NCBI GenBank assembly: GCA_003223555.1
Contig: QHVM01000087.1
Span: forward strand, 169,323 to 204,080
Direction: 5' to 3'
Origin: Acidobacteriota bacterium
GTDB lineage: Bacteria; Acidobacteriota; Vicinamibacteria; Fen-336
DNA: 34,758 nt
Positions 2,335 through 33,368 of this stretch are shown in pieces. Numbering within the stretch: position 1 is the stretch's first letter; each line of letters opens with the position of its first letter. The notes beneath the pieces were generated by a model that was given only the letters and a program-made list of their open reading frames with translations, was not told where the DNA came from and searched no databases. The position numbers were made by a program, and so were the translations under genes.

Positions 2335-2554
2335 CTCTTCCCCAGGCCAACTATGCGTCTTTCATGGGAATTGATTGCGAGATGCGTGCCACAAAGGCAG
2401 GAACCATGGCCCCAAACCGCCCAATGACTCCATGCGACCGGCATTTTGTCGGATCCGGCCTCCGCGGCATCACGTCAAAAAATGCGTATGCTTGAAAAAC
2501 CTTCTCGTGCGCGCGGTCACACCCGGGAATCGATCCTGATTCGTCACATCAGGG

Positions 2555-2582
2555 TTGACAGGCGCGCCAGCGAGCCTATGTT
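2555..2582 (+). promoter_or_regulatory. Sigma-70-like promoter of the lytic transglycosylase
   Basis: A perfect -35 TTGACA (2555-2560), a 16-nt spacer and -10 TATGTT (2577-2582, 4 of 6 consensus). Transcription would begin near 2589. This also decides the start codon of the gene: the in-frame TTG at 2555 is the -35 box itself, so translation must begin at ATG 2606. Confidence 0.6.
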
Positions 2583-2605
2583 CGAAGGAGGGGGTTTTCG
2601 GTCAA

Positions 2606-7330: not shown

Positions 7331-8883
7331 GAGATACCGTCGCTGCGCTCGGGCTGGCGCTGTCGACGGCCGGCGTCGTGTTCCCTTCCCCCGATCCAGC
7401 GCGGGTGCGGGAACAGGTGCGGGCCTGGCGGCAAGCCCACGAAGCGTCCATCCTGCGCGAGTTCGCCGGGCTGCTCGCGGTGCCGAACCTGGCCTCCGAC
7501 GCGCCGAACATCCGCCGCAACGCGGAGCGCATCGTGGCCATGGTCGAGCAGCGCGGGCTCTCGGCGCGCCTGCTCGACGGCCAGGGCGGCCCGCCGCCGG
7601 TGTATGGCGAGCTGAGGGTGCCCGGCGCCGTCCGCACCGTGCTCGTCTATGCCCACTACGACGGCCAGCCGGTCGACCCCACGGCATGGGCGAGCCCGCC
7701 CTGGACCCCGGTGCTTCGCGAGGGGCCGTTCCAGGAGGGCGGCCGGGAGGTCTCGCTCGACGCGCTGCCGTCTGCGGTGCCGGGCGAGTGGCGCCTCTAT
7801 GCGCGCTCGGCGGGCGACGACAAGGCTCCCATCGTCGGCGTCCTGGCCGCGGTCGATGCGCTGAAGGCGGCGGGCCTGGCACCCACGGTCAACCTCAAGC
7901 TCTTCTTCGAAGGCGAAGAGGAGGCGGGCTCCCCGCACATGGCGGCGGTGCTCGACGCCAGCCGCGACGCTCTCCGCGCCGATCTATGGCTGATCTGCGA
8001 CGGCCCCGTGCATCAGAGCCGGCGGATGCAGGTGTTCTTCGGGGCCCGCGGTGAGACCGACGTCGAGGTCACCGTCTACGGACCCGCCCGGGCGCTGCAC
8101 AGCGGCCATTACGGCAACTGGGCCCCCAACCCGGCCCTCAGGCTGGCCCGCCTCGTCGCGGGATTGCGCGACGAGGACGGACGCATCCTGGTGCCCGGCT
8201 TCTACGACGACGTGCGGCCGGCGACCGACGCCGAGCGGCAGGCGGCGGCCGCGGCGCCCGACGTGGAGGCGGCGCTTCGGCGCGAGGTCGCCCTGGCCGC
8301 GACCGAGGCGGGCGGCGCGCGGCTGGCGGAGCGGATCCTTCTCCCCGCCTTGAACGTGCGGGGGCTCGAGTCGGGCCACGTGGGAGCCGCGGCCGTCAAC
8401 GCCATCCCGACCGAGGCGCATGCGTCCATCGACATCCGGCTCGTCCCCGACCAGACGCCGGCGACCGTTCGGGAGAAGGTCGAGTCGCACCTGCGCGCCC
8501 AGGGCTACACGGTCGTGCACGACGCGCCGGACCTGGAGGCGCGGCGGACCCAGCCACGAATCGTGCGCCTCGTATGGGGAGCGGGCTACCCGGCCGCGCG
8601 GACCGCGATGGACCTGCCGGTCTCGCGGGCGCTCGTCCGCGCGCTGGAGGCCGGGCTGGGCGCTCCTGTCGTCCGCCTGCCGACCCTCGGCGGCAGCGTG
8701 CCGATGTACCTCTTCCAGCAGAAGACGGGCCGCCCCGTCATCGGCCTCCCCATCGCGAACCACGACGACAACCAGCACGCCGCCAACGAGAACCTGCGCC
8801 TCCAGAACCTCTGGGACGGCATCGAGGCCTACGCGGCGGTCCTCACCGGGCTGGGCCCGGGATGGCACGCGGGGCCGGACTGA
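7327..8883 (+). CDS. M20-family metallopeptidase, exported
   Basis: 518 residues; the ATG at 7327 overlaps the transpeptidase stop by 4 nt. A short hydrophobic N-terminus (TVAALGLALSTAGVVF) may be a weak signal peptide or anchor. Dinuclear zinc site residues are seen in order: His110 in VYAHYDGQP, Asp164/165 in SAGDDKAP, the EGEEEAG cluster (195-201) with the general base and a metal ligand, Asp in ICDGP, and a C-terminal His in IANHDDNQHAANEN. The dimerisation/lid domain lies between. The family cleaves dipeptides, N-acyl amino acids and similar small substrates. Coupling to an L,D-transpeptidase suggests it trims peptides released from peptidoglycan (inference). There is no separate promoter. 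Confidence 0.9.
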   Translation: MRDTVAALGLALSTAGVVFPSPDPARVREQVRAWRQAHEASILREFAGLLAVPNLASDAPNIRRNAERIVAMVEQRGLSARLLDGQGGPPPVYGELRVPGAVRTVLVYAHYDGQPVDPTAWASPPWTPVLREGPFQEGGREVSLDALPSAVPGEWRLYARSAGDDKAPIVGVLAAVDALKAAGLAPTVNLKLFFEGEEEAGSPHMAAVLDASRDALRADLWLICDGPVHQSRRMQVFFGARGETDVEVTVYGPARALHSGHYGNWAPNPALRLARLVAGLRDEDGRILVPGFYDDVRPATDAERQAAAAAPDVEAALRREVALAATEAGGARLAERILLPALNVRGLESGHVGAAAVNAIPTEAHASIDIRLVPDQTPATVREKVESHLRAQGYTVVHDAPDLEARRTQPRIVRLVWGAGYPAARTAMDLPVSRALVRALEAGLGAPVVRLPTLGGSVPMYLFQQKTGRPVIGLPIANHDDNQHAANENLRLQNLWDGIEAYAAVLTGLGPGWHAGPD

Positions 8884-8907
8884 TCCGGGACTTACCTGCC
8901 GCGGCGG

Positions 8908-9096
8908 TCAGAAACCAGCGCGGCCGGGAGCGACCGGCATTCCCGAGTAATGGACGTGGACGGGGCGCCACCGCCCGTTCATCTTCCCGTAGACCTGGGT
9001 CTCGCGACCGTGCGTCTCGATGGCGGTGCCATCCTTCTGGAGCTTGGCTGCGAAGTCCCAGTAGAACTCCGCCCAGGCAACATCCTCGTACTTAGC
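8908..9096 (-). pseudogene. 5'-truncated remnant of an NTF2-like/SnoaL-type protein
   Basis: On the minus strand one frame reads about 62 residues, from KYEDVAWAEFYWDFAAKLQ through GRETQVYGKMNGRWRPVHVH and YSGMP to a TGA at 8910-8908. This is the typical C-terminal half of NTF2-like (DUF4440/SnoaL/CaMKII-association-type) folds: strand with W-x-F/Y, G-R-x-T-Q-V, then DGRW-type turn and VH-x-H-Y-S. The N-terminal half and any start codon are missing. The frame is closed by TAA at 9099-9097, inside a 20-nt palindrome next to the end of the decarboxylase. It is too short to fold as a full domain, so I call it a gene fragment. Confidence 0.65.
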
Positions 9097-9110
9097 TTAC
9101 GTAAGTTAAG
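9091..9110. repeat. 20-nt near-perfect palindrome at a gene-fragment junction
   Basis: CTTAGCTTACGTAAGTTAAG is self-complementary except for one symmetric pair of positions. It covers the stop of the decarboxylase (TAA at 9108-9106) and sits exactly where the NTF2-like remnant loses its 5' half. It is AT-rich against the local background and carries stop codons in several frames. Confidence 0.7.
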
Positions 9111-10534
9111 AGCGGCGAGGACGGCGGTTCTCGCCCAGGATCTCGCGGCCCACCCGGGCCGCCTCGTCGAGGAGCGCCCGCAGGTCTTCTTCGGTGGTGC
9201 GGAAGTTGGTGATCGAGACGCGCAGCGAGGAGCGGCCGTTCAGGATCGTGGGGGCGAGGAAGAAGGCGCCCTCGCGCACCAGGCGGTTCACGATCCGCCG
9301 GTTGAGCCGGTCGAGGGCGTCCTCTTCGAGACGGCTCTTCCGCGGCCGATAGCGGAAGTTGGCGATCGACAGCACCGGCTCGGCCAACAGCTCGAAATCT
9401 TCCCTCCCGCGGACCTCTTCGGAGAGCAACCGGGCCAGCGCTACGTCGCGCTCGATCGCCGCCGCGTAGCCCTTCGTGCCGTGCCGCTTCAGGCCCATCC
9501 ACACCTTGAGGGCCTTGAAGCCGCGCGACAGCTCCACGCCGCGCTCGGCGAACCACGCTGGTCCCGGAAAGGGGCTCTCAGGATCCGAAGCGAGGTACTC
9601 CGGGAACTTGCGGAAGGCCGGCCTCGTACGGCACGTACAGCCACTTGTGGGGATCGGCGGCGATCGATTGCGCCCGCTCGATCCCCGCGAACAGCGGGCG
9701 GAGCCTCGGGGACAGCCTCGCCATCGCCCCGTAGGCCCCGTCCACGTGGAACCAGAGGGACTCGCCCGCGCAGAGCTCGGCCAGCTCGTCGAGCGGATCG
9801 ACGGCGCCGGTGTTCACGGTGCCCGCGTTCCCGACCACGATCGCGGGCGTGAGGCCGGCCCGGCGATCGGCGGCGATCGCCTCCCGCAGGCGGTCCACCC
9901 GGATGCGGAAGCGGTCGTCGACCTCGATCTTGCGGAGCTGCCGGGTGCCGATGCCGAGCAGGTCGACCGCCTTGTCGACGCAGGCGTGGACCTGCTCCGA
10001 CGCGTAGACGACCAGGCGCGGCCGGCCGTCGCCGGCCAGTCCGTCCTCGCGTACGTTGCCCGGCATCACCGCCCGGCGGGCCGCGGCCAGGGCGGTGAAG
10101 TTGGCCGTCGACCCGCCGGAGACGAGGATGCCCTCCGCCGCCGGGGGAAAGCCGAGGATCTCGGCCAGCCAGCGGATGACCGTGCGCTCGACGTGCACCG
10201 CGGCATGGTCCCCGCCCCAGCAGTTGGGGTTCATGGCCGAGGCGAGGTAGTCGGCCACCGTGCCCACCGGGTCGGCGGTCGCGTTGATGAAACCGAAGAA
10301 CCGCGGGTGCGAGTTGCCCATCGGACGGGGCATGACGTGCTCCCGCACGAAGCCGAGGACCTCCTCGAACGGCCGCCCGTCCTCGGGCAGTGGCTCGTCG
10401 AAGCGGCCGGCCTCGCCCCCGACCTTGCCGAAGACGGGATGGGACAACAGGTCGCGGCGGTGCTCGGCCACGGCGTCCGCAGCCAGCCGGCCGATGCGCC
10501 GCACTTCGTCGGGGGGCAGGTCGAACTCGTCCAT
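9106..10534 (-). pseudogene. PLP-dependent (aromatic-L-amino-acid type) decarboxylase, frame broken
   Basis: The first part (10534 down to about 9620) reads as a group II decarboxylase: SHPRFFGFINATADPVG, GGSTANFTALAAARRA, HVDGAYGA, and the PLP lysine in DPHKWLYVPYEAG (Lys297). Right after YEAG the frame goes wrong and stops at 9578. Another frame resumes at about 9618 with FRKFPEYLASDPESPFPGP and WFAERGVELSRGFKALKVWM, and runs to the TAA at 9106. Homologues have about ten further residues between these points, so roughly 30 nt (2 modulo 3) seem to be missing. It would decarboxylate an aromatic or acidic amino acid if intact. The ATG at 10534 has GGAAAGG upstream. Either a real inactivating deletion or an assembly error explains it. 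Confidence 0.8.
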
Positions 10535-14548: not shown

Positions 14549-15085
14549 GTGCCTTTCGGCTACTACGATCGCCTGTCCCGGCGGGAGAAGGAGCTGTACG
14601 ACCGGAGCGACCGGATCCGGAGGATCGACCTGCCCCAGGCCGAAGGCCTGCGTCCGATCGTCGAGGTCCTGCGCCAGGCCCTGGCCGGGGACGACCGCAA
14701 GGTCGTGGAGACCGCCTGCATCCGCCTCGTCCAGGGGATCACGGCCAGCCTGGGCATCCCGCCGGTCGAGGTGGGCGTCCTCGCCGTGCGGCCCAGCCTG
14801 CGGGCGGCCGAGCTGCACGGCCTCTACACGCGGGAAGAGAAGGGCCGCCCGCGCATCCGGGTCTGGATGCGCACCGTCCACTACCGGCGGGTGGTCGCCT
14901 TCCGCACGTTCCTGCGCACGCTGCTCCACGAGGTGTGCCACCATCTCGACTACGCGCATTTCAAGCTCGCCGACTCGTTCCACACCGAGGGCTTCTTCCA
15001 GCGCGAATCGAGCCTGTTCTACCAGCTCGTCCCCCGCGATCAGTCTCCGGAGGCGAAGTCGTCCGCCGAGAGCACCGGGCAGTAG
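14549..15085 (+). CDS. Conserved HExxH zinc-peptidase-like protein
   Basis: 178 residues from GTG 14549. The start is supported by the recognisable beginning PFGYYDRLSRREKELYDRSD. The central part holds a helix with LRTLLHEVCHHLDYAHFKL, an H-E-x2-H-H zinc motif (Glu as possible base), followed by DSFHTEGFFQRESSLFYQL, where a later His/Glu may give the third ligand. This resembles minimal metallopeptidases (SprT/M48-like), but I cannot name the family. There is no signal peptide or span, so it is probably cytoplasmic. Its last 46 nt overlap the end of the convergent lipase-maturation-factor gene. It has no clear Shine-Dalgarno. It is divergent from the HisC-like gene. Confidence 0.75.
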   Translation: MPFGYYDRLSRREKELYDRSDRIRRIDLPQAEGLRPIVEVLRQALAGDDRKVVETACIRLVQGITASLGIPPVEVGVLAVRPSLRAAELHGLYTREEKGRPRIRVWMRTVHYRRVVAFRTFLRTLLHEVCHHLDYAHFKLADSFHTEGFFQRESSLFYQLVPRDQSPEAKSSAESTGQ

Positions 15086-16521
15086 TCCCCTCTCGGCTGC
15101 CGGGTCCACCAGGTCCCGTCCCGCCGCCGGACCTCCAGGCTCGTGGGCGCATAGTCGTACATCTCCGCCCGGACGAACCGGGGCGGCCGGTCGGGAAAGG
15201 GATTCCGGGCGAGGAGGGCCAGCACGGGCGGCGAGCCCTGGAGCAGCCGGCCGACGAATCGCACGAACCACTGGTTGTCCTCGCAGGTGCCGAGCGCCGC
15301 GAACCACATCTGCCAGTCGAGCCGCGGCTGGTGGGGAGCGACGAAGGCCGGGCGGCGGCCGAGGTCGCCCGGCTTCCACCTGAACTCGTACGCCTTCCAG
15401 GACTGGCCGTCGTCGCTTCCCTCGACGACGATCTCCGGACGCGACGTCGTCATCACCGCGAAGAGGCCGTAGCCGTTGATCGAGGAGAGCGGCGCGACCA
15501 CCCGGTGGAGGGCCACGACCGGCGCCGGCGGCTCGACGCCGAAGGCCGCCATCATCTCGCCTCCGGAGACGAGACCGACGACGGCCGCCACCGGATAGAG
15601 GACCGCCCGCGGCCAGAACGGCGGATCCGCCTTCTCCGAAGGCGGTGCGAGCCGCTCACGCCAGCGCGGGGGCAGGTCCGCGTCTTCGAGGGCGAAGAGG
15701 CAGAGCGCCCCGGCGAGCAGGTTGAAGAAGGCGTAGTTGCCGGTGACGGCGATGAGCGCCTGGAGGCCGACGAGCGGGCCGAAGGCCATGCGCCGGAAAC
15801 GGCGGGGAGCGAAGAGCAGGAGCGGGGCCACCAGCTCGACGCCGAACATCATGCCCACCGACGCGCTCTGCGCCCAGCCCGGCAGGTGGGCCGCGTACCA
15901 GCCGATCCAGGTCGGCAGCGGCTGCGTCCAGTAGTGGTAGCGCAGCGCGGTCAGCGCGCGCCAGCTCTGATCACCGCTCGCGAGCTTGACCACCCCCGAC
16001 GAGAACACGAGCCGGAAGAGCAGCCAGCGCAGCAGCCACACCGCCAGGGGCGAGGGGGCGGACTCGCGCGCCGCTCGGGGGCGCAGGCCACCCGGAGCGA
16101 AGAAGACCGCCAGCAGGCCGGTCTCCAGGAGCAGCGCGTCCCACTGGTAGCCGAGGAACACCTGGCCGACGACGCTGAACGACAGGTAGAGCGCCCACAG
16201 CAAGATGAGGATCGGGATCGGCGCCAGGCCGGCGAGGAGGGCGACCGCGAGCACGGCGCCGGCAATGCCGCCGCCGGTCAGCGCGAGATCACCGCCCCCC
16301 AGCCAGAAGATCGTCGGCGCGATCCAGTACCGCTCGAGGCCTGTGCGCGGGCGTACCCAGTCCAGGAGCACGTGGGCGGGAAGGATGCCCTGCGAGCCGA
16401 CGAGGCCCGTCACCTGGACGGCCAGAGACAGGAAGGCGGCCAGGTAGGCAAGCGCCAGCAGGCGGAGGAAGAGCCAGCGGATGACGAAGTACGTCGGCGC
16501 CGCGGCCGGCTTCGTGTCCAT
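15040..16521 (-). CDS. Lipase maturation factor (LMF1/2)-like membrane protein
   Basis: 493 residues from ATG 16521. The first ~330 residues hold many membrane spans (LRLLALAYLAAFLSLAVQV, IPILILLWALYLSFSVVGQV and others). Signature segments of the LMF family are present: RYWIAPTIFWLG, YQWDALLLETGLLAVFFAPG, LFRLVFSSGVVKLASGD, WRALTALRYHYWTQPLPTW, TGNYAFFNLL. The soluble C-terminal part has INGYGLFAVMTTSRPEIVVE, HQPRLDWQMWFAALG and DYAPTSLEVRRRDGTWW. In vertebrates LMF1 helps fold dimeric lipases in the ER; the bacterial role is not established. It starts 11 nt after the stop of the outer-membrane protein gene, so the two form an operon. Its stop lies inside the convergent HExxH gene (46-nt overlap). 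Confidence 0.9.
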   Translation of the reverse strand: MDTKPAAAPTYFVIRWLFLRLLALAYLAAFLSLAVQVTGLVGSQGILPAHVLLDWVRPRTGLERYWIAPTIFWLGGGDLALTGGGIAGAVLAVALLAGLAPIPILILLWALYLSFSVVGQVFLGYQWDALLLETGLLAVFFAPGGLRPRAARESAPSPLAVWLLRWLLFRLVFSSGVVKLASGDQSWRALTALRYHYWTQPLPTWIGWYAAHLPGWAQSASVGMMFGVELVAPLLLFAPRRFRRMAFGPLVGLQALIAVTGNYAFFNLLAGALCLFALEDADLPPRWRERLAPPSEKADPPFWPRAVLYPVAAVVGLVSGGEMMAAFGVEPPAPVVALHRVVAPLSSINGYGLFAVMTTSRPEIVVEGSDDGQSWKAYEFRWKPGDLGRRPAFVAPHQPRLDWQMWFAALGTCEDNQWFVRFVGRLLQGSPPVLALLARNPFPDRPPRFVRAEMYDYAPTSLEVRRRDGTWWTRQPRGDYCPVLSADDFASGD

Positions 16522-16532: not shown

Positions 16533-17915
16533 CTATCGGGCCGCGCCGGGCCGATAGATGAACGACACGAAGAACCGATGGAAACGCGTGAAGGTCTCGG
16601 CGCCCGATGCCTCCGCGTCGGCATAGCTCCCGTACTCCAGGACGTAGGCCGCATCCACGAGCAGGGACCGGGTCGCGACGCCCAGCCCCACGGTCACGCC
16701 CGTGAAGCGGGGGGGATGGCCGCTGTTGTCGAGGAAGTATTGACGGTCGGTGAAGAAGCCGGCCCGCACCGGGAGGCGCAAGCGACGGCCGACGATGACG
16801 TACTCGCCGCCGATCCGCACCTGCTCGGTGTCCTCCTGGGGGCGATCGCTGCCGCTGAGGGTGGGGTACTCCAGGTCCAGAAGCTCGCTGGGCTCCGGCT
16901 GCGGAGGCTCCACCGGCTGGCCAGGGTCCGGGGACGGAGTCGCGGCCAGGAGGAAGAACCGGTGGATCTGACCGGTCGACCAGAACGTTCGCGTGTAGTC
17001 GGCGCTGAGCGTGAGCGGGCTGGTCGGCCGCCACGACAGGCCGATCCCGAAGGCGCCGGGCAGGTGCAGGCTGCCGCCGAGGCCGTAAGCGTTCGAGGTG
17101 GGAGGGGGAGGGGACTCGTTGGCCGGCGCCGAGAAGGAGTCCACGCGGCTGCGGCTGAGGTCGACCTTCCCGGTGAACGCGGTCTTGATCACCCCACCGA
17201 CGTTCAGGTTCTCGATGGGCGACCAGATCGAGCCGGCGTTCAGGTTCCACCCCGAGAGCCGGTAGTCGATGTCCTGCTCGGTTCCACCCCGAGCGCGCTG
17301 CCCGCCCAGCGGCGTGCGCACGCGGTGCTGGTGGTAGCCGTTGAACCAGCGGTTCAGCGTGCCGCCGAACCGCAGGCTGCGCGTGAGCCGGAGGCCGGTT
17401 CCCAGGGCGACGACGTCGAAGCCGCCCTCGCCGGTCGTGTTGAATGTGAAGTCGTTTCGCTGGATCGTCCGCGTCCCCCCGAAGGAGAAGATCCTCTGGT
17501 AGCTGAGCTGCACGGCGCCCGAGACCCCCCGGATGTCGAGGGGATAGGCGACCGCCATGAAGTCCGGCGTGTAGCCGACCAGGCTGTCGGTGGCCGGCAG
17601 GCCCTGCTGGCCGCGGTCGAAAGCGTTGCGCGTCCCCACGAGCGACAGCTCGGGGCTGCGCAGGTAGCTGAGGCCGGCCGGGTTCCAGGAAGCGGCGGTG
17701 GCGTCGTCGGCCCGGGCCAGGAAGGCGCCGCCCATCCCGAACGCCCGCGCCCCCGAGCCGAGCGCGAGGCTCGTCAGGCCCAGGAAGTCCTTCTCGTCCG
17801 GGGGCAGGCTGGGAGTGGGGGACGTCTGGCCGTGCGCCGTGGCCGCGGCGAGGCAGATCGCCGCCCCGAGAAGCCCCGACCGACCGCAGTGTCGAGCGAC
17901 CGGTGGGAAGGGCAA
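16533..17915 (-). CDS. FadL/PorV-like outer-membrane beta-barrel protein
   Basis: 460 residues if begun at TTG 17915, which is placed 5 nt after GAGGAG and gives a signal peptide (RSGLLGAAICLAAATAHGQ). No ATG or GTG fits better. The mature start LGLTSLALGSGARAFGMGGA followed by ARADDATAASWNPAGLSYL is the hallmark of PorV/PorQ/FadL-type barrels (G-A-R-A-x-G-M-G-G-A-F, then W-N-P-A-G-L). Alternating strands fill the rest, with a Pro/Glu-rich loop near 315-335, and the end is FFVSFIYRPGAAR. It probably forms an outer-membrane channel for hydrophobic or secreted substrates. The downstream LMF-like gene follows by 11 nt. Oddly, the TTG start is the end of a run of seven T's. Confidence 0.85.
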   Translation of the reverse strand: MPFPPVARHCGRSGLLGAAICLAAATAHGQTSPTPSLPPDEKDFLGLTSLALGSGARAFGMGGAFLARADDATAASWNPAGLSYLRSPELSLVGTRNAFDRGQQGLPATDSLVGYTPDFMAVAYPLDIRGVSGAVQLSYQRIFSFGGTRTIQRNDFTFNTTGEGGFDVVALGTGLRLTRSLRFGGTLNRWFNGYHQHRVRTPLGGQRARGGTEQDIDYRLSGWNLNAGSIWSPIENLNVGGVIKTAFTGKVDLSRSRVDSFSAPANESPPPPTSNAYGLGGSLHLPGAFGIGLSWRPTSPLTLSADYTRTFWSTGQIHRFFLLAATPSPDPGQPVEPPQPEPSELLDLEYPTLSGSDRPQEDTEQVRIGGEYVIVGRRLRLPVRAGFFTDRQYFLDNSGHPPRFTGVTVGLGVATRSLLVDAAYVLEYGSYADAEASGAETFTRFHRFFVSFIYRPGAAR

Positions 17916-18005: not shown

Positions 18006-19028
18006 ATGGCCGCCTTCGCGCGCCGCGCCGAGCTGGCGCTGCTCCTCGGAAGCGTCGCCGTGTTCCTGCTCGGGGCCGAGGCGGCGGTGCGCGTGCTGAA
18101 GGCCGACCAGCCCGTCCCGACCGGCTACGCGCCCGTCAACACCAACCGGCGCTTCATGCGGCCCAGGAACGCCCGCGGGTACCGCGACCTGGACCGCACG
18201 CTGCCCAAGCCGCCCGGCGTCCGGCGGGTCGTCTCCCTCGGGGACTCCTTCGCCTGGGGCGCCAGCGTCGAGTTCGAGGACGCCTACCCGCAGAGGCTCG
18301 AGCGCGGCCTGCGGCGCCGGCGGCACGAGGCCTGGCAGGTCGTCAACCTCGCCCGGCCGGGGATGAACAGCGTCGACGAGGCGGCCCAGCTCGAGAGCGA
18401 GGGCATGGCCTACGAGCCCGACGTGGTGCTCCTCGGCTACGTGCTCAACGACAGCGAGGACGCGAACGCGGCCGAGGCGCGCCGGGCCGAGGAATGGGCG
18501 GAGCCGAAACAGAAGCCGAGGGGGATGTTCGACCACTCCGCGCTCTTCCGGCTGCTGACCGCGCGGCTGTGGGCCACCGCCGAGAACCGCCGGCGCGTCA
18601 CGGGCTACAAGTCGATGTACCGGGACGATGCGCCGGGCTGGATCGCCGCCCGCCAGGCGCTCCACCGCATGGGCGCGCTCTGCCGGCAGAAGGGGGTGCC
18701 CTTCGTGGTGGTGATCTTTCCCCTGTTCGGCAACCCGCTGGACGACCGCTATCCGTTCCCCGAGATCCACGGCAAGGTCGCGCAGGCGGCCGGGGAAGCG
18801 GGGGCGAAGGTCGTCGACCTGCTGCCCGTCTACCGCGGGCTGCGGTGGGACCTGCTCGTCGTCAACGGCGTCGACGACGAGCATCCCAACGAGATCGCCC
18901 ACCGCATCGCCGCCGGCGTGATCCTGCACGCGCTCGACGACGTGGTGCCGTGGACCGGCGGCCGGCCGGCGGCCGACGAGGCGGAGCCCGAGCCGGCGAG
19001 TCCGGCCGTGCCGGGACCGTCGCGATGA
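18006..19028 (+). CDS. SGNH/GDSL-type hydrolase, membrane-anchored
   Basis: 340 residues. An N-terminal hydrophobic segment (about 9-28, ELALLLGSVAVFLLGAEAAV) acts as signal anchor. The SGNH fold shows block I SLGDSFAWGA (Ser81), an Asn/Gly-type segment NLARPGMNSVDEAAQLESEG, GYVLNDSED, and the Asp-His pair in GVDDEHPNEIAHRIA. Such enzymes remove acetyl or other acyl groups from glycans or lipids, or act as acyltransferase partners, in the periplasm. It is the first gene of a tightly coupled operon; its TGA overlaps the next ATG (ATGA at 19025). The C-terminal ~20 residues are Ala/Pro/Glu-rich. Confidence 0.87.
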   Translation: MAAFARRAELALLLGSVAVFLLGAEAAVRVLKADQPVPTGYAPVNTNRRFMRPRNARGYRDLDRTLPKPPGVRRVVSLGDSFAWGASVEFEDAYPQRLERGLRRRRHEAWQVVNLARPGMNSVDEAAQLESEGMAYEPDVVLLGYVLNDSEDANAAEARRAEEWAEPKQKPRGMFDHSALFRLLTARLWATAENRRRVTGYKSMYRDDAPGWIAARQALHRMGALCRQKGVPFVVVIFPLFGNPLDDRYPFPEIHGKVAQAAGEAGAKVVDLLPVYRGLRWDLLVVNGVDDEHPNEIAHRIAAGVILHALDDVVPWTGGRPAADEAEPEPASPAVPGPSR

Positions 19029-20215
19029 CGGCGCGGGCGCGGTGGGCCCTGCCGCTCGCCGCGGCCTGCGCGGTCCGCCTCCTGCCGATCCTTTTCGCCG
19101 ACCGGGTGGTGGCCGACGTGCAGCGTTATCACCGGCTCGCCGCGCACGTCCTGGACGCGTCATGGAACCCCTACCAGGCGCCCCGCCTGTATCCCTACCC
19201 GCCGGTGTGGGTGTGGGTCGAGGCCGGCAGCGAATGGCTCTCGCGGCGGACCGGCTGGAGTTTCGCCGTCCTGGTCAAGCTTCCCGTCCTCGGCGCCGAC
19301 CTGGCGATCGTCGCCCTGCTCGCCGGGTGGGGCCGGCGGAGCGGCCTGGGCGAGGCCCCGGCCTGGCTCTACGCGCTGCACCCGGTGAGCGTGCTCGTCA
19401 GCGCGTTCCACGGGCAGTTCGAGGCGGTGGCGCTCGCCTTCGTCCTCGTCGCCCTGCTCGCGCTCGAGGCAGGCCGGCGCGACCTGAGTGCGCTGGCGCT
19501 GGCGTCGGCGATCGCCTTGAAGTCATTCCCGGTGCTGCTGCTGCCCATCTTCCTGCTGGCCCCGGGCCTGGCCGGACGCGCGCGCTGGCGTTTTGCCGTC
19601 CTGGCCTTGCTGCCGGTCGTGCTCCTGCTCATTCCGTACGCGATCGCCGACTGGGCGGCGCTGCGCCGCGAGCTGTTCGGCTACGGGGGGATCGCCGACC
19701 TCGGCTGGATCGGCTTCTGGCGCGGCCTGCGGTGGCTGCACACGGGCGTGCTCGTCCACAGCGAGAGCCCGTACTGGGGCGTCCTGGTGCCGTTGTCCAA
19801 GGTCCTGACCCTGGCCGCGGAAGGCGCGCTGTTCGCCGCGATCGGCCTGCGCCGCGGGCGCTGGACGCCCCCTGAGGCGTGCCTGGCCGTGCTGCTGGCC
19901 TTCCTCGTCTTCTACGGAAGCCTCAGCGCCCAGTACCTGCTGTGGGTCGTGCCGCTGGGGACGATGAGGCCCGACCGCTTCGCGGCCGTCCACGGAGTCG
20001 TCTCGACCTTGGCCCTCGTGGGCCTGTACTCGTTCCTGGCCCCGGGCATCCTCTATTCGAGCCCATCGCCCGCGCTCCTGTCCCGCCCGCAGTGGGGAGC
20101 GCTGTGGGTCGTCGGCACGGGCGCGGTGCTGCTGGCCAGCGCCGGATGGCTGGCCGACGTGGTCGCCCGCGGCGTCGCCAGGTCGAAGGCCGGGACGGAG
20201 CCTCCGGCTCGATGA
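19025..20215 (+). CDS. GT-C fold polyprenyl-sugar-dependent glycosyltransferase (GT87/GT39-like)
   Basis: 396 residues with about ten membrane spans. The first loop after the first span has VADVQRYHRLAAHVLDASWN and PYQAPRLYPYPPVWVWVEA. The D-x-x-x-Y-H plus N-P-Y / Y-P-P pattern is typical of GT-C enzymes of the GT87/PIG-M-like type, where the loop Asp is catalytic. SAFHGQFEAVALAFVLVALL and ALKSFPVLLLPIFLLAPG also fit. It probably transfers a sugar from a polyprenyl-phosphate donor on the periplasmic face of the inner membrane. Both its start and its stop overlap neighbours by 4 nt, so it is made together with the SGNH and GT39-like proteins. The acceptor is unknown. Confidence 0.85.
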   Translation: MTARARWALPLAAACAVRLLPILFADRVVADVQRYHRLAAHVLDASWNPYQAPRLYPYPPVWVWVEAGSEWLSRRTGWSFAVLVKLPVLGADLAIVALLAGWGRRSGLGEAPAWLYALHPVSVLVSAFHGQFEAVALAFVLVALLALEAGRRDLSALALASAIALKSFPVLLLPIFLLAPGLAGRARWRFAVLALLPVVLLLIPYAIADWAALRRELFGYGGIADLGWIGFWRGLRWLHTGVLVHSESPYWGVLVPLSKVLTLAAEGALFAAIGLRRGRWTPPEACLAVLLAFLVFYGSLSAQYLLWVVPLGTMRPDRFAAVHGVVSTLALVGLYSFLAPGILYSSPSPALLSRPQWGALWVVGTGAVLLASAGWLADVVARGVARSKAGTEPPAR

Positions 20216-21938
20216 CGGTCCGCCTCCGCGGCGCCGTGGCGCCGGCGGCCGTCGCGGCCGGCGTGGCCGTCTACGTGACGCTGGCGGTCGGCGGCATGCG
20301 GAGGCAGTCGGCCACCTTCGACGAGGGCTCGCACCTGCCGGCCGGCTACACGTACCTCAAGCTCGGCGACCACCGGCTCAACCCGGAGCACCCGCCGCTG
20401 GTGAAGGCGCTGGCCGCCCTGCCCCTGCTCTTCATGGACGTGACGGTCAAGCCCGACGACGAGGCGTGGGCGATGCGCCGGCAGTGGGAGTTCGGCAAGC
20501 GGTTCCTGTACCGCTGGAACGACGCCGACCGCCTCCTCTTCTGGGGGAGGCTGCCCGTCGTCGTCCTCGGCGCGCTGCTCGCCGTCTCGGTGTTCCTGTG
20601 GGCCCGCGCCCGCCACGGCCTGCCCGCCGCCGTGCTCGCCCTGTTCCTCTGCGTGCTCAGCCCCGACGTCCTCGCCCACGGCCAGCTCGTGACGACCGAC
20701 GCCGGCATCGCGCTCTTCATGTTCCTGTCGGTCGTCGCCTTCGACGCCGCTTCGCGACAGCTCAGCGCCGGCCGGCTCGCCCTGGCCGGGCTGGCCGCCG
20801 GCCTGGCATTCGCGACCAAGTTCTCGGCCGTCCTGCTCCTGCCGATCCTGACCGGCTTGGCGCTGGTGGCCGTCTTCGCCCCGGGGCCGATGTCCCTCGC
20901 GCTTCCTGGCCGCGCCCGGCGCGAGCTGGCCGGCCGCGGCGCGCGCCTGGGAGCGATGGCGGCGTTGCTGGTGGCCATCGGCGCCGTCTCGCTGGCGGTC
21001 GTGTGGGCTTCCTACGGCTTCCGCTCTCCGCTGTCCCCCGATCCCGGTGTCGAGAGCGCGTTCGAGTGGTCGCGCGTCGAGCCCGACGGCGCGCTCGAAC
21101 GGCCGGTGGCGCATCTGGTCCGCGCGAGCGGGATGCTGCCGGAGTCCTTCGTCTTCGGCTTCCTGCGCTTCTTCAAGCACTCCGAGCCGCGCCCGGCCTT
21201 CCTGCTCGGCCGGGTGTCGAGCGCCGGCTGGTGGTACTTCTTCCCGGTGACGTTCCTGCTCAAGACGCCGGTGCCGCTGCTCGTGCTCCTCGGCATCGCC
21301 CTCGCCACGCGGCGGCGGCACGCCCGGCCCGGGCGGGACGAGCTGGTCCTCTGGCTGCCGGTGGCGATCTATGCGGTCGTCGCCGTCGTCCGCGCGCTCA
21401 ACTGTTCGTGGCCGCCGGCCGCACCGCGGCCTGGGCCTGGCCGGGCGAGCATGCGCCTCGGCGCGCGCCGGTCCTCGTGGTCGGCCTGCTCTGCGCCTGG
21501 CACGCGGTGTCGACGGCGCTCGTCCACCCGCACTACCTGGCCTACGTGAACGAGCTCGGCGGAGGGCCGGCGAACGGCTATCGCCTCTTCGCCGACTCCA
21601 GCCTCGACTGGGGCCAGGACCTGAAGAACCTGAAGCGCTACCTGGGCCGTCACGGCGTCCGGGCCGTCAAGCTCTCGTACTTCGGGACGGCCGATCCCGC
21701 CTATTACGACATCCCCGGCGAGTTGCTGCCCAGCCACATGCTGCCGCCGCCGCGGGAGACGACGACCGAGGTGAAGCCCGGCGACCTGCTGGCCGTGAGC
21801 GCGACCAACCTGCAGGGGGTGTACCTGCCGCCGGAGGACCAGCCGCTGATGGCGCGGCTGCGCGAGCAGCGGCCGATCGACAACGTGGGCTACTCCATCC
21901 TTATCTATAGGGCGGAGTTCGCCTGGCCTCCGCGGTGA
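20212..21938 (+). pseudogene. GT39/PMT-like membrane glycosyltransferase, frame broken
   Basis: The first frame (20212 to about 21402) gives a GT-C glycosyltransferase: ATFDEGSHLPAGYTYLKLGD and HRLNPEHPPLVKALAALPLL in the first loop (acidic catalytic D-E), then many spans. After VVAVVRALN the frame fails and would stop at 21549. A second frame resumes at about 21402 with LFVAAGRTAAWAWPGEHAP and continues through HPHYLAYVNELGGGPANGYR and SSLDWGQDLKNLKRYL to the TGA at 21936-21938. Relatives have about twelve residues here (N-I-G-x-R-H-L-L-P-x-Y-P-F), so about 37 nt (1 modulo 3) appear lost. Start and end keep the 4-nt overlaps of the operon, which argues for a recent lesion or an assembly error. 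Confidence 0.8.
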
Positions 21939-23050
21939 GCGTGTCGCGCGGGCGCGACCTGCTCTCCGGCCTCGCGCTGTCGGCCGCCGCCGTGGCGGCG
22001 GTGCTCCTCGCCGGGGAGGTGGTCTTGCGCGCGGCCGGCTACGTGCCCCAGCGGTTCCAGAACACGGCCCGGCTCGTCGACGGCCGCTGGCAGATGCTGC
22101 TCGACTGCTACCCGAGCAACCCGCGCGGCTACTTCGAGATCGACCTGCGCACCCGGGCTTCGCGCGAGCGCTACTTCCACCTCGCTCCCCACCGGTTCGA
22201 CCTCGTGGCCCGGCGGGCCCCGTTCGCGGTGGAGTTCCGCTACAACTCGCTGCGCTTCCGCGACGTCGAGCCGTCGCCCAAGGCCGACGGCGTGCGGCGC
22301 GTGGTCGTCGTGGGCGACTCGTTCACCGAGGGCCAGGGAGTGAAGGAGACCGACACCTACCCGCGGGTGCTGGAGCGGCGGCTCGAGGCCGGCGGAGGCC
22401 GGTGGGAGGTCCGCAACTGCGGCCGGCGGGGGGCCGACTTCCCGCAGCTCTACGAGGCGTTCGAGGACGCCCTGAAGTACGCGCCCGACGTGGTCGTCTA
22501 CGGCATGGTGCTGAACGACGCCGAACGCTCGCCGCAGTTCCAGGCCCGCCAGAGCTACGTCAACGACTGGATCCTCGACCGCGGCCGGATGCTCGAGGGC
22601 CGGCCGTTCCCCGAGCCGGGCCTGCTCGACTCGCGCCTGATGGCCCTCGCCGCCGACCGGGTCGAGACGTGGCGGACCGGCCGCGCCACCGCCCGCTGGT
22701 ATCACGACATGTACGGCGAGCCCAACCGCGAAGGGTGGGAGCGGACCCAGGACGACCTCCGCGAGATGAACCGCCGCACCCTCGCCGGGGGCGGCCGCTT
22801 CCTCGTCGCGGCTTGGCCCCTGATGATCCACCTGGAAGGCGACGACCCCTTCGCCGACGTCTCGGAGACGGTCGCGCGGTTCTGCCTCGCCGCCGGCATC
22901 CCGCGCCACGACCTTCGGCCGGCCTTCCGCGGCCGGCGCACCGAGTCGCTCTGGGTCCACCCGGTGGACATGCACCCGAACGAGAGCGCCCATCGCCTGG
23001 CCGCGGAAAGCCTCGCCCCGGCCATCCGCGCCCTGTCGGCCTCACGCTGA
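21935..23050 (+). CDS. SGNH/GDSL-type hydrolase, membrane-anchored (second copy)
   Basis: 371 residues from GTG 21935, overlapping the previous TGA (GTGA). A signal-anchor segment lies at about 8-32 (LLSGLALSAAAVAAVLLAGE). Catalytic blocks: VVVVGDSFTEGQGVKETDTY (block I Ser), NCGRRGADFPQLYEAFEDAL, YGMVLNDAERS, and the C-terminal HPVDMHPNESAHRLA with Asp and His. It is related to the first gene of the operon but longer at the N-terminal side and clearly divergent, so not a recent duplication. Probably a periplasmic esterase or acyl-transfer partner acting on the glycan made by the two glycosyltransferases between them (inference). Confidence 0.87.
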   Translation: MSVSRGRDLLSGLALSAAAVAAVLLAGEVVLRAAGYVPQRFQNTARLVDGRWQMLLDCYPSNPRGYFEIDLRTRASRERYFHLAPHRFDLVARRAPFAVEFRYNSLRFRDVEPSPKADGVRRVVVVGDSFTEGQGVKETDTYPRVLERRLEAGGGRWEVRNCGRRGADFPQLYEAFEDALKYAPDVVVYGMVLNDAERSPQFQARQSYVNDWILDRGRMLEGRPFPEPGLLDSRLMALAADRVETWRTGRATARWYHDMYGEPNREGWERTQDDLREMNRRTLAGGGRFLVAAWPLMIHLEGDDPFADVSETVARFCLAAGIPRHDLRPAFRGRRTESLWVHPVDMHPNESAHRLAAESLAPAIRALSASR

Positions 23051-29070: not shown

Positions 29071-31203
29071 ATGCGCCTCCTGCCTCTCGGGTTCGGGCTG
29101 GCCGTGGCCGTGAACACCGCCGCGCAGACGCCGCCTTCGCCGCCGCCGGCCGCCGCCGACCAGCCCGTCTTCCGGACCGGGACCACCGTGGTCCTGCTCG
29201 ACGTCGTGATCCGCGACAAGAAGGGCCGGCCGATCCCGGACGTGACTCGCGACGAAGTCGAGGTCTTCGAGGAGGGGGCCCGGCAGAAGATCGAGGCCTT
29301 CCGCTGGGTCGAGACCGAGGCGCCCGTCGAGGGCGCAGCCGCGCCGCCGCCCAAGGCCCCGGACGCGTCGCGCCAGATCAACCTCGTCTCGCTGGTCTTC
29401 GACCAGCTCGGCCCCGACGGTCGGCGCCTGGCCGCAAAGGCGGCGACGAGCTTCCTCGACAAGGGTCTTCGGCCGAACACGTGGGTGGCCGTCTTCCAGA
29501 TCGACCAGCGTCTGGCGCTGCTCCAGCCCTTCACCAACGATGCGGCGGTGCTCAAGGACGCAGTGACCCGTGCGACAGCCGGTACTTACAAAGGCCTCAT
29601 CGACGAGCGGGCCGCGCTGCAGGAGGCGCAGAAGCAGCTGGAGGACAGCGGGGCCGCGGAGGCCGACGGCGCCACCGGGGGCCGGGGCGCCCCCGCGACC
29701 GGCGGCGGCTTCGCCGCCCACGCCCAGGCCCAGGCGCTGATGAACATGCTCCGCATGGCGTACTCTCTCCAGCGGCAGCAACAGGGCGCCACGTCGCTCT
29801 ACCCGCTGCTCGCGCTCGTGCGCGGGCACGAGACGCTGGCCGGCCGGAAGACGCTCGTCTATCTCTCGGAGGGCCTCCAGGTGCCTCCGAACCTGGAGGC
29901 CGTCTTCCGCTCGACGATCAGCGCGGCCAACCGGGCGAACGTCAGCGTCTACGCGATCGACGCCCGCGGTCTCAACGTGGAGCGGGCGATGGCCGCCTCG
30001 GGGGATGCGCTGGCCCAGGCCCAGCGGGCCAGCCAGCGTTCCGTGCAGAGCCCCGGCGGGGGCTCGGTGACCAAGGACGAGATCTACGCCGCCGACACCG
30101 CGGAGTCGGCCCTGCGGCTCGACGTCGAGGGCACGCTGGCCGACCTGTCCGAGAGCACGGGCGGGTTCCTGGTCGCCAACACGAACGACTTCAAGCAGGG
30201 GGCGGAGCGCCTGGCCGCCGACCTCTCGGGCCACTACGAGCTGACGTACCAGCCGCCCGCGGCGGCCTGGGACGGCCGCTTCCGGCCGATCGAGGTGAAG
30301 GTGGCCCGCAAGGGCGCCGTGGTGCAGGCCCGCAGCGGATACTTCGCGCTGCCGCCCGGCGAGTCATCGGCCCTGCTCGCCTACGAGGTGCCACTGCTGG
30401 CCGCGCTCGGCCGGCCCGCGCCGCCCCGGGACTTCGAGCTCCGCGCCGGCACCCTCCATTTCGACGAGGGACCGGCCGGCCGCGAGCACCGGCTGATCGT
30501 CGAGGCGAGGATCGGCAGCCTCGAGATGGTCAAGGACCCGGCGAAGAAGACCTACCGGGTCCATTTCTCCCTGCTCGCCCTGGTGAAGGACAAGGACGGG
30601 GCGGTCGTGGAGCGCTTCAGCGAGGACTACCCCTTCGAGGGCCCGATCGAGAAGGCGGAGGCCCTGAAGCTCGGGAGCATCGTCTTCAAGCGCCGGTTCA
30701 CGCTCCCTCCTGGCTCGTACAGCCTGCAGGCGGCGGGGCAGGACCGCGAGCGGAACCGGATCGGCACCACGCGCGTCACCTTCGAGGTTCCCGCCCCGGC
30801 GCCGGGAGCGCGGATGAGCAGCATCGCGCTCATCCGCCGGATCGAGTCCGCTCCGGCGCGGGCCGAGCGCTCCGACGATCCCCTGGACGTCGGCGGCGTG
30901 CGGGTCGTCCCCAACCTCGACCTCCCGATCTCCCTGGCCGCGAACCAGAAGCTGTCGCTGTTCTTCATCGCCTACCTGCAGGGCGGCGAGCGGCCCCGGA
31001 TGAGCCTGGAGTTCTGGCGCGCGGGCCGGGCGCTGGCCCGGGCCGAGCCGGAGCTGCCGGCCCCCGAGCCCGACGGGAAGATCCGCTACGTGGGGACGTT
31101 CCCGATCGAGAAGTTCACCCCCGGCGAGTACGAGGTGCGCGTGGCGCTCAGCGGGCCGGCCGGCCGCTGCGAAGAGAAGGCCGCGTTCACGCTGGTCCCT
31201 TGA
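29071..31203 (+). CDS. Secreted VWFA-related protein (Acidobacteria type)
   Basis: 710 residues. The signal peptide (MRLLPLGFGLAVAVNTAAQ) leads into the family's N-terminal strand block: TGTTVVLLDVVIRDKKGRPI, then DVTRDEVEVFEEGARQKIEA. A von Willebrand factor A-like region follows (LVSLVFDQLGPDGRRLAAKA, GRKTLVYLSEGL, VSVYAIDARGLN), then ESTGGFLVANTNDFKQGAER and a beta-rich C-terminal half (GHYELTYQPP, YSLQAAGQDRERNRIGTTR). The canonical MIDAS D-x-S-x-S is not intact: the visible motif is FDQLG. This pattern is common to many Acidobacteria VWFA-related proteins. The function is not known; secretion and metal/protein binding are the usual expectation. It is followed by a related gene through a 4-nt overlap. 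Confidence 0.88.
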   Translation: MRLLPLGFGLAVAVNTAAQTPPSPPPAAADQPVFRTGTTVVLLDVVIRDKKGRPIPDVTRDEVEVFEEGARQKIEAFRWVETEAPVEGAAAPPPKAPDASRQINLVSLVFDQLGPDGRRLAAKAATSFLDKGLRPNTWVAVFQIDQRLALLQPFTNDAAVLKDAVTRATAGTYKGLIDERAALQEAQKQLEDSGAAEADGATGGRGAPATGGGFAAHAQAQALMNMLRMAYSLQRQQQGATSLYPLLALVRGHETLAGRKTLVYLSEGLQVPPNLEAVFRSTISAANRANVSVYAIDARGLNVERAMAASGDALAQAQRASQRSVQSPGGGSVTKDEIYAADTAESALRLDVEGTLADLSESTGGFLVANTNDFKQGAERLAADLSGHYELTYQPPAAAWDGRFRPIEVKVARKGAVVQARSGYFALPPGESSALLAYEVPLLAALGRPAPPRDFELRAGTLHFDEGPAGREHRLIVEARIGSLEMVKDPAKKTYRVHFSLLALVKDKDGAVVERFSEDYPFEGPIEKAEALKLGSIVFKRRFTLPPGSYSLQAAGQDRERNRIGTTRVTFEVPAPAPGARMSSIALIRRIESAPARAERSDDPLDVGGVRVVPNLDLPISLAANQKLSLFFIAYLQGGERPRMSLEFWRAGRALARAEPELPAPEPDGKIRYVGTFPIEKFTPGEYEVRVALSGPAGRCEEKAAFTLVP

Positions 31204-33368
31204 AGGCGGTGGTGCGACTGCGCGGCGTCCTCCTGCTCGGCCTCCTGGCCTCCCGCTCCGCTCCCGCCCAGCAGGGCGGGCCCACGCCTCCGCCCGCCTT
31301 CCCCTCGCAGGTCGAGCTGGTCACGGTGGACGCGGTGGTCGTGGACGCCAGGGGGCGGGCGGTGCCCGGATTCACCGCGGCCGACTTCACCGTGCTGGAG
31401 AACGGCGTGCCCCAGGCGGTCACGCGGTTCGAGGCCGTGCAGCTCCCGGCGGCCGCGGCGCCGGCCCCGTCCCGCCGCCCGCCGTTCTCCACGAACCAGA
31501 CGCCCGAGGCCCGGCAGGGGCGGACGTTCGTCCTCGTCTTCGACGACATCCACCTCTCGGTGGCCCAGGCCCAGCGGGCCAAGGCGGCCATCGGCGAGTT
31601 CCTGCGGAGCGGCGCGCGGCCGGGCGACCGCGTGGCGCTCGTCGCCACCGGGGGGACCGCCTGGTGGAGCGCCCGCTTGCCGGAGGGCCGCGACACGCTG
31701 ATGGCGATCCTGAAGCGGCTCGACGGCCGGTACGTGCCCGACCCTTCCCCGGATCGCATCACGGACTGGGAAGCGCTGCGCATCATGGCCTACGACGACC
31801 CCGACGTGGGCTATTCCGTCCAGCGCCGCTTCGACGCGTACGGCTCGATGGGCCGCGAGCGCACGGGGGACCGGCGATACGCCGACGCCACCCGCACCGG
31901 CTCGTCGGTGGGCATCATCGACCCCTACGTCCGCTCCCGCGCCCAGGACGCTTACCTCAAGGCCGTGTCGCGCCGCCGCATCACGATGTCGGTGATGACC
32001 CGGGCCCTGCGCTCGCTGGCCGAAACCCGAGGCCGGAAGGCGATGGTCCTCGTGTCGCAGGGGTTCGTCTACGAGCCGGACTTCACGGAGATGAAGGAGC
32101 TGGTCGAGGCTTCACTGCGGGTCAACGTCCCCATCTACTTCATCGACACGCGCGGGCTGCAGGGCCTGCCCGACTTCATGACCGCCGAGTTCAAGGCCAC
32201 CTTCGACGTCCAGGACACGGTGGCGGTGCTCGCCGACATGACGCGGGCGGGGGAAGGGTCGGAGGCGCTCGCCCTCGACACGGGCGGCTTCGTCGTCAAG
32301 AACACGAACGACCTGGAGAGCGGCATCCTCCGCGTCTCCTCCGAGTCGCAGGCCTACTACCTGCTCGGCTACGCGCCCACCGACGCCAGCCGCGACGGCA
32401 AGTACCGCCGGATCGAGGTGCGGCTGGCGGCGGGGAAGGCCAGGGGCTTGAAGGTGCGCGCCCGGCGGGGATACTACGCGCCCCGGCAGGGCGCCGGGCC
32501 CACGCCGAAGACGGCCGCCGATCCCGAGATCGCCCGCGCCCTCGACTCTCCGTTTCAGCGCCGCGAGGTGCCGCTGCGCGTTGCCGCCTACGCCTTCGAC
32601 GAGGCGCTTTCCCAGAGGTCGATCGTGATGGTGGCGGCCGAGATCGACGTCCGGGAGCTGGCCTTCCGCTCCGAGGACGGCCGCTTCAAGGACGAGCTGG
32701 CCTTCCTGCTCGAGGCCCAACACCGGGAGAGCGGCGAGGTGTACCGCGACAGCCAGAGGATCGAGATGGACCTCAAGCCGGAGACGCGCGAGTCGCTGGC
32801 TCGCACCGGCTACCTGTTCAGCCGCGAGCTGGCGCTGCCCGGCGGCGGGTACCAGGTCAAGGTCGTGGTGCGCGACCTCGGCAGCGGCCGCCTGGGCTCG
32901 GTGATCCACGACTTCGAGGTGCCCGACCCCGCCTCGTTCCACCTGACCTCGCCGATCCTGGCCGAGACGCTCGAGGAGAAGCGGGGCGACGACTCGCGGC
33001 CCCCGCGGCCCGTCCTCCAGGTGCGGCGCAGCTTCGCGCCCGCCTCCCGCCTCTACGTCCAGTACAGCGTGCTGGGCGCGGCGAAGGACGAGGCGACCCG
33101 CATGCCGAAGGTCTCGGGCGGTTACGAGATCCGCCGGGCCGACGGATCGGTCGTGAAGGGCGCCGCCCCCACCCTGATCCGGCCCACCTCCCTCGGCGCG
33201 CTCATCCGGCTCCAGGGCATCGCGCTGGACGGGGCGCCGGCCGGCGACTACGAGCTGGTGCTCCGCGTGCGGGACGAGATCGCCCGGCGCACGGTGGAGG
33301 TGAGGGAGCCGTTCCAGGTGGACGCGGCACGGCCGGTCGCGCACGCTCCCGGCCTGCCGCCCTCGTAG
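31200..33368 (+). CDS. Second secreted VWFA-related protein
   Basis: 722 residues if it starts at TTG 31200, overlapping the previous TGA as TTGA; GTG 31209 or 31212 are alternatives. The signal is RLRGVLLLGLLASRSAPAQ. Domain order copies the preceding gene: VELVTVDAVVVDARGRAVPG, FTAADFTVLENGVPQAVTRF, VLVFDDIHLSVAQAQRAKAA (VWFA beta-1 with D-D-x-H), GRKAMVLVSQGFV, VPIYFIDTRGLQGLP, LDTGGFVVKNTNDLESGILR, YLLGYAPTDASRDGKYRRIE, then a beta-rich C-terminal half. The two proteins are paralogues that have diverged clearly, probably functioning as a pair. A long in-frame extension upstream through the previous gene is not real. Confidence 0.87.
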   Translation: MKAVVRLRGVLLLGLLASRSAPAQQGGPTPPPAFPSQVELVTVDAVVVDARGRAVPGFTAADFTVLENGVPQAVTRFEAVQLPAAAAPAPSRRPPFSTNQTPEARQGRTFVLVFDDIHLSVAQAQRAKAAIGEFLRSGARPGDRVALVATGGTAWWSARLPEGRDTLMAILKRLDGRYVPDPSPDRITDWEALRIMAYDDPDVGYSVQRRFDAYGSMGRERTGDRRYADATRTGSSVGIIDPYVRSRAQDAYLKAVSRRRITMSVMTRALRSLAETRGRKAMVLVSQGFVYEPDFTEMKELVEASLRVNVPIYFIDTRGLQGLPDFMTAEFKATFDVQDTVAVLADMTRAGEGSEALALDTGGFVVKNTNDLESGILRVSSESQAYYLLGYAPTDASRDGKYRRIEVRLAAGKARGLKVRARRGYYAPRQGAGPTPKTAADPEIARALDSPFQRREVPLRVAAYAFDEALSQRSIVMVAAEIDVRELAFRSEDGRFKDELAFLLEAQHRESGEVYRDSQRIEMDLKPETRESLARTGYLFSRELALPGGGYQVKVVVRDLGSGRLGSVIHDFEVPDPASFHLTSPILAETLEEKRGDDSRPPRPVLQVRRSFAPASRLYVQYSVLGAAKDEATRMPKVSGGYEIRRADGSVVKGAAPTLIRPTSLGALIRLQGIALDGAPAGDYELVLRVRDEIARRTVEVREPFQVDAARPVAHAPGLPPS

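Follow-up and report, generated by a model that had tools for sequence, protein, structure and literature searches.

A family-restricted SGNH and GT-C gene cluster in Vicinamibacteria with a putative role in tailoring envelope glycans

Introduction

The GT87 family (PF09594) comprises PimE-type polyprenyl-phosphate mannosyltransferases, and GT39/PMT_2 brings together ArnT, PMT and Agl23-like GT-C enzymes. The SGNH/GDSL superfamily (PF13472) includes carbohydrate esterase families 2 and 3 and the esterase PbeAcXE. The periplasmic AlgJ/AlgX and PatB are SGNH acyltransferases acting on envelope glycans, of which AlgJ and AlgX are circularly permuted, and one account describes AlgJ/AlgX and PatB as working with a partner of the MBOAT/AT3 type (PMC9487903). 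The present study concerns a locus in a draft genome of an Acidobacteriota bacterium (5.39 Mb in 151 contigs) in which a GT-C gene and a GT39-like gene lie between two SGNH genes, in the order SGNH1, GT-C, GT39-like and SGNH2, all on the + strand at 18006-23050 of the stretch analysed. This stretch of 34,758 nucleotides, hereafter the window, spans positions 169323-204080 of contig QHVM01000087.1 (C151) and has a guanine plus cytosine (GC) content of 0.66-0.77 per kilobase.

An original prediction, made from the sequence without database searches, read the four genes as a translationally coupled operon for an envelope glycan that is built and then de-acylated or acylated at the periplasmic face. 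No such locus was found described in a literature search whose coverage left most subscription papers and preprints outside; the locus comprises known kinds of enzymes in an arrangement without a description found in the literature searched.

Results

Conservation within the family

The four gene labels of the original prediction are supported by Pfam matches and, for SGNH2, by its predicted fold, and the positions given for SGNH1, GT-C and SGNH2 proved correct (Table 1). Conservation was surveyed in a family set of 14 genomes, namely that of the window and G001-G013. Those relatives that carry names are metagenome-assembled genomes with titles of the type Vicinamibacteria bacterium or Acidobacteria bacterium (QHVJ01000258.1, JAICEW010000150.1 and QHVP01000006.1 among them), and the family name is taken from these titles. 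At least two locus genes are adjacent and in order in 10 of the 14 genomes, the window's own included, and chance juxtaposition is rejected because the order is conserved in relatives. All four genes stand in order in three (the window's own, G001 and G003). The four-gene architecture originally described thus recurs, as one of several arrangements. Three genes are adjacent as SGNH1-GT-C-SGNH2 in G010, as SGNH1-GT39-SGNH2 in G005 and as SGNH1-GT-C-GT39 in G006, G011 and G013; two are adjacent in G004 (GT39-SGNH2) and in G007 (SGNH1-GT39, with SGNH2 farther on behind another membrane-protein gene). The genes are dispersed in G012, where GT39 and SGNH2 are 1.5 kb apart and the rest are on other contigs, and only the GT-C gene was found in G008 (63% complete). 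The locus was not found in G002 (68% complete) or G009, the best GT39 matches of which score 199 and 192 bits, compared with 895 bits for the locus copy of G013.

The spacing of the genes is conserved as well as their order. The start codon lies exactly at -4, that is, in a 4-nt overlap, in 18 of the 19 junctions of relatives, a count that leans upward since the -4 start was chosen wherever the sequence offered more than one. Counted were the junctions between one locus gene and the following one and, in G007, the junction of a further gene with SGNH2; exits from the block were excluded. The overlap was seen in all eight junctions from SGNH1 to the next gene (L068, L069, L070, L071, L078, L080, L081 and G007), in five of six from GT-C (the exception being a 5-nt gap in G001), in all four relatives with GT39, open in one frame, directly before SGNH2, and in the single junction of another gene with SGNH2 (G007). 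It is kept where the locus has no GT39 (GT-C to SGNH2, G010) and where it has no GT-C (SGNH1 to GT39, G005). By comparison, none of the other six same-strand junctions listed in the window, from SGNH2 through VWFA1, shows a -4 overlap (gaps of 2-67 nt).

A few further arrangements were observed in the relatives. G007 and G012 carry a similar opposite-strand membrane-protein gene between GT39 and SGNH2 (L073, about 6737-9900; L075, about 7700-9200), and the gene coupled at -4 to SGNH2 in G007 encodes a membrane protein of 550 residues without a Pfam match. In G009, from which the orthologous locus is absent, a divergent SGNH-like gene (66 bits) adjoins a same-strand GT-C-like gene (31 bits; L084, about 500-3270).

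The GT39-like gene and its break

In the window itself, the overlaps at 19025 (SGNH1/GT-C) and 20212 (GT-C/GT39) are true ATGA stop/start overlaps. The letters GTGA are likewise present at 21935, with the TGA at 21936-21938 belonging to the frame of an open reading frame (ORF) at 20466-21938, whereas the frame opened by the GT39 ATG at 20212 closes at 21549 and is not that of the TGA overlapping the SGNH2 GTG. Two of the three overlaps first proposed therefore stand in full and the third as letters only. Coupling of all four proteins, itself a reading of the overlaps, fails for the window copy as sequenced, because a 37-nt absence puts the overlapping stop in another frame.

In the DNA alignment to the same-genus relative (L088, same contig as G001), this absence is a single clean gap falling between 21401 and 21402 of the window. 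The missing 37 nt correspond to twelve residues, IGHRHLLPIYPF in the relative's reading, plus one base, and nine of the twelve positions are invariant across seven aligned relatives. All seven have GT39 as a single open frame; the window copy is frameshifted and without IGHRHLLPIYPF. A profile search likewise splits the window gene into a piece matching profile positions 5-394 and another matching 407-579, which begins at 190724 of the contig (window 21402). A programmed frameshift is not favoured, since twelve residues are missing besides the change of frame.

The N-terminal part shares 79% identity with its intact counterpart in the same-genus relative, with a ratio of nonsynonymous to synonymous substitution (dN/dS) of 0.22 (measured on 20212-21354), and the C-terminal part has a dN/dS of 0.24. 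Among the other genes compared with this relative, the lowest value is 0.16 (mandelate racemase-like) and the highest 0.28 (SGNH2). Because both halves resemble their neighbours, a long-decayed gene is not supported, and these ratios suggest either that the gene was constrained until recently or that the gap is an assembly error. The window C-terminal part reads DSSLDWGQDL, and its DSS in place of the DSN that is invariant in the seven relatives slightly favours a real loss.

Caution on this lesion is suggested by breaks elsewhere. The RidA-like gene of L088 (15356-15779) aligns in two pieces with 22 residues skipped and the frame changed, and two GT39 homologues of G010 are each split across two frames (L192, C695, 3329-9085; L193, C398, 4378-6020). 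These breaks point either to repeated decay of GT39 genes or to indels of this kind being frequent in these draft assemblies, and the split copies weaken the case that a broken GT39 is unique to the window. They also show that GT39 is absent from G010 at the locus only, the two homologues being on other contigs. Besides its GT39 homologue, the C695 contig of G010 bears a membrane gene on the opposite strand, resembling the one in G007 and G012, together with another SGNH-like ORF, an SGNH2-like copy that is broken and the beginning of a gene for an outer-membrane protein; this group looks like a second, decayed locus.

The two GT-C enzymes

The N-terminal part of the window GT39 matches PMT_2 at 29.6 bits (Pfam cut-off 26.1), as does GT39 in five of seven relatives at E<=0.001; the ORF 20466-21938 taken whole gave no Pfam match. 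The family's GT39 matches both PMT_2 and PMT, and it matches the Agl23 model TIGR03663 weakly, far below cut-off. The relative's protein has about 11 hydrophobic segments. The GT39-like enzyme further shows an invariant Asp-Glu pair (residues 31-32) and, beyond its final hydrophobic segment, a long conserved C-terminal part. Unlike other GT39/PMT_2 members, the locus protein carries a C-terminal DSNxDWGQDL stretch that is invariant in the seven aligned relatives. A structure model from five sequences was poor, with a predicted local distance difference test (pLDDT) score of 53.9; the profile found no solved relative at E<=0.01.

The GT-C protein of the window resembles GT87 in an above-cut-off Pfam match (29 bits against 25) and in about 10 hydrophobic segments, but is distant from that family, three of seven members, the window's included, matching it at E<=0.001. 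Its invariant features are D31, WNPY and RLYPYP, and its profile found no solved relative at E<=0.1. A scan of all four locus genes against NCBIfam gave nothing above cut-offs.

SGNH1 and SGNH2

Both SGNH proteins match Lipase_GDSL_2 above the Pfam cut-off of 32.9 bits (SGNH1 45, SGNH2 54.7) and both possess the GDS serine, the Gly and Asn oxyanion blocks and the catalytic His of the family. In SGNH1 the motifs GDSF, VLND and DEHPN and the residues G79-D80-S81, G119, N148 and H293 are invariant among eight aligned sequences, and in SGNH2 S129, G163, N194, D345 and H347 are invariant among 14, the window being included in each. These are the catalytic blocks of the SGNH/GDSL superfamily in canonical order; unlike the superfamily's Block V of DxxH, both locus enzymes have an invariant Asp two residues before the His (DxH). 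By sequence, Block V of SGNH2 is D345-M-H347, DxH only, and that of SGNH1 reads DDEH in the window, with the invariant Asp at -2. Each protein has one hydrophobic helix (SGNH1 10-28, SGNH2 13-31) preceded by Arg and followed by the catalytic domain. A single N-terminal helix with Arg before it fits periplasmic esterase domains, and the periplasmic setting first proposed is consistent with this predicted topology.

The structure prediction proposed for the SGNH pair covers SGNH2, the model of which (pLDDT 89.2) adopts an SGNH-type fold. Its best matches are mostly GDSL/SGNH esterases, lipases and thioesterases with Z scores of 14.5-17.4. They include crocagin CgnD (8a2n; Z 17.4, root mean square deviation (rmsd) 3.9, 232 aligned), PbeAcXE (7toh; Z 16.9, rmsd 3.2, 197 aligned), TesA (4jgg; Z 16.7, rmsd 3.0, 177 aligned), a Chloracidobacterium polyesterase (9otv; Z 16.4, rmsd 3.4, 180 aligned), a family 3 esterase (2vpt; Z 16.3, rmsd 2.7, 178 aligned) and a family 2 esterase (2wao; Z 14.5). 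The fold is thus shared with carbohydrate esterase chains at Z 14.5-16.9, and because the best chains are nearly tied it does not name the substrate. Sequence matches of SGNH2 are weak (AxeA1 at 30.8 bits, cut-off 700; 2waa).

In a tree of 56 SGNH sequences, with an unresolved backbone and several long branches elsewhere, SGNH1 (11 rows, support 100/100) and SGNH2 (20 rows, 91/93) form separate clades; recent tandem duplication is rejected on these separate clades, the mutual position of which is unresolved. The locus SGNH2 genes form one group (9 rows, 99/83), including a second G010 copy that is unlinked and the G012 copy, which lies close by without being adjacent. The SGNH2-like genes of G006 and G011 belong to another subclade than the locus copies, so that relocation of SGNH2 in these genomes is rejected; that of G006 sits behind an unrelated gene.

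Neighbouring genes

Of the 12 genomes with locus genes, nine, the window's included, have a divergent outer-membrane protein gene beside them, and this gene belongs in the description of an architecture first given as four genes. The window protein matches Toluene_X at 21.8 bits, below the Pfam cut-off of 29.7, and is hence called FadL-like rather than a member; six of seven alignment members, the window's included, match Toluene_X at E<=0.001. A homologue adjoins SGNH1 in G001, G003, G005, G007, G011 and G013 and GT-C in G008. In G012 it lies upstream of GT39 with another SGNH-like ORF between (L090, 4079-5347, minus strand), in which GDS, GTND and DHIHP motifs are visible by eye. As for the remaining three genomes, G006 ends at a contig edge, the gene of G004 is on another contig, and in G010 no more than a partial copy exists, at another site adjoining a broken SGNH2-like gene.

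In the window, the outer-membrane protein gene has as its neighbour an LMF1-family (lipase maturation factor) gene at 15043-16521 on the minus strand (LMF1 188 bits, LMF1_C 173 bits). Two VWFA-like genes were recognized by eye at 29071-31203 and about 31278-33368, the start of the second being uncertain; Pfam backs the first only, and weakly (VWA_2, 18.6 bits, cut-off 27).

Table 1. Features of the locus and its divergent neighbour, in window coordinates
Feature	Coordinates	Strand	Basis
SGNH1, membrane-anchored SGNH/GDSL hydrolase, 340 aa	18006..19028	+	Pfam Lipase_GDSL_2; invariant motifs
GT-C glycosyltransferase, GT87-like, 396 aa	19025..20215	+	Pfam GT87
GT39-like (PMT_2) glycosyltransferase, in-frame N-terminal part	20212..21401	+	Pfam PMT_2
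37-nt absence, frameshifting	21401..21402	+	DNA alignment, seven-relative alignment, profile search
GT39-like C-terminal part, different frame	21402..21938	+	78% identity to same-genus relative
SGNH2, membrane-anchored SGNH hydrolase, 371 aa	21935..23050	+	Pfam Lipase_GDSL_2, fold, invariant residues
FadL/TodX-like outer-membrane protein gene, divergent from operon, start codon uncertain	16536..17915	-	Pfam Toluene_X below cut-off; conserved linkage

Outside the family

In a sample of 396 genomes of the phylum, 79 contain GT39 homologues at E<=1e-40. Eighteen loci from 18 of the genomes listed, spanning 6-18 kb and in some cases ended by contig edges, were searched with the SGNH1, SGNH2, GT-C and outer-membrane protein profiles, and none of the 18 had a match; other SGNH types were not searched for. 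In the stretches retrieved around SGNH2 homologues of Myxococcota (L096, L099 and L102), neither GT39 nor GT-C was matched. In Sandaracinus (L099, 8989-14561) a second SGNH-like gene comes after the SGNH2 homologue, and farther on lies a gene labelled by eye as carbamoyltransferase-like.

Discussion

The locus is real, conserved and family-restricted, and a role in envelope glycans is sensible although unproven. We tentatively favour, at somewhat less than even confidence, a family-specific periplasmic operon for glycan tailoring that combines glycan building with O-deacylation. The GT87-like and GT39-like enzymes, with active sites that would face the periplasm judging from their families, would draw sugars from polyprenyl-phosphate donors there and transfer them to an acceptor in the envelope, which may be a glycolipid, a surface polysaccharide or a secreted protein. 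The membrane-anchored SGNH pair would remove O-acyl groups from the glycan, before or after the sugar additions. At the outer membrane, the FadL-like protein may serve the product or an intermediate that is hydrophobic. In the window copy the GT39 step would be lost if the 37-nt absence is real. We infer the periplasmic topology, the donor type (from the GT-C families), the deacylation and a common substrate for these enzymes. The donors would have to be supplied from elsewhere in the genome, where 48 GT2 matches could include donor synthases.

Several observations weigh against this proposal. Since the 18 loci outside the family have none of the partners searched for, GT39 need not act with SGNH enzymes. 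SGNH1 occurs away from glycosyltransferase genes in G014, a genome of another family, and in an extra copy in G005 (L087). In G002, G004 and G009 homologues of the outer-membrane protein lie elsewhere than at the locus, and its gene is not exclusive to the locus since G002 and G009 are without one. No GtrA-type match was found in the genome. Lastly, thioesterases, lipases and arylesterases match the SGNH2 fold equally, within about 2 Z units, so that a glycan substrate for SGNH2 is putative.

It seems unlikely that the SGNH proteins are instead O-acyltransferases decorating a glycan built by the GT-C enzymes and fed by an acyl exporter encoded elsewhere. The known glycan-acting periplasmic SGNH proteins do include the acyltransferases AlgJ/AlgX and PatB, as given in PMC9487903, and AlgIJX, PatAB and OatA/AT3-SGNH offer an analogous layout, a membrane-associated SGNH domain acting on an envelope glycan. 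The genome also has one MBOAT and one AT3 match. These lie on C45 and C126, respectively, however, and no membrane acyl exporter is linked or fused to the locus. In addition, both locus enzymes keep the canonical S-G-N-H order with the Block II Gly and Block III Asn, in contrast to the permuted AlgJ/AlgX, and unlike the acylation systems they are paired with GT-C enzymes. Of the two outcomes that the original prediction left side by side, de-acylation is favoured over acylation, given the lack of a linked MBOAT or AT3 gene.

About as improbable is a lipid-remodelling locus, in which the SGNH proteins would be lysophospholipase- or lipase-like and the GT-C enzymes would glycosylate a membrane lipid. 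The adjoining FadL/TodX-like gene, the LMF1-family gene, present in G001 too, and the presence of TesA and of lipases among the structures matching the SGNH2 fold are consistent with it. Against this, only the window and G001, among the loci searched, proved to have the LMF1 gene, the FadL-like match of the window is below the Pfam cut-off, and carbohydrate-esterase folds score equally high.

Protein O-glycosylation, with a PMT-type GT39-like enzyme, a GT87 enzyme extending the glycan and SGNH proteins editing the acyl groups of the glycoprotein, is less likely still, for while PMT and PMT_2 are the Pfam families matched and the invariant Asp-Glu and the long conserved C-terminal part would suit it, those matches clear the cut-off narrowly and PMT_2 also covers lipid and polysaccharide glycosyltransferases.

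Returning to the glycan-tailoring operon, its SGNH enzymes differ from the SGNH/GDSL superfamily in their N-terminal membrane anchor and in the recurrent -4 coupling to GT-C genes. A more specific form of the proposal, possible but distinctly doubtful, is a modular envelope locus of the build-and-trim kind, not described before and belonging to one Vicinamibacteria family, in which SGNH1 and SGNH2 frame a variable slot of GT87, GT39 or both, usually coupled at -4 and beside a FadL-like protein. The window also illustrates that a reading made without tools can miss a frameshift in high-GC DNA with long shadow ORFs.

If the modular build-and-trim proposal is true, each GT-C step would be matched to an O-deacylation step. 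To our knowledge, envelope glycans are little studied in those Acidobacteria known mainly from metagenome assemblies, and this conserved, compact unit offers an entry point to them through two testable esterases and a pair of GT-C enzymes.

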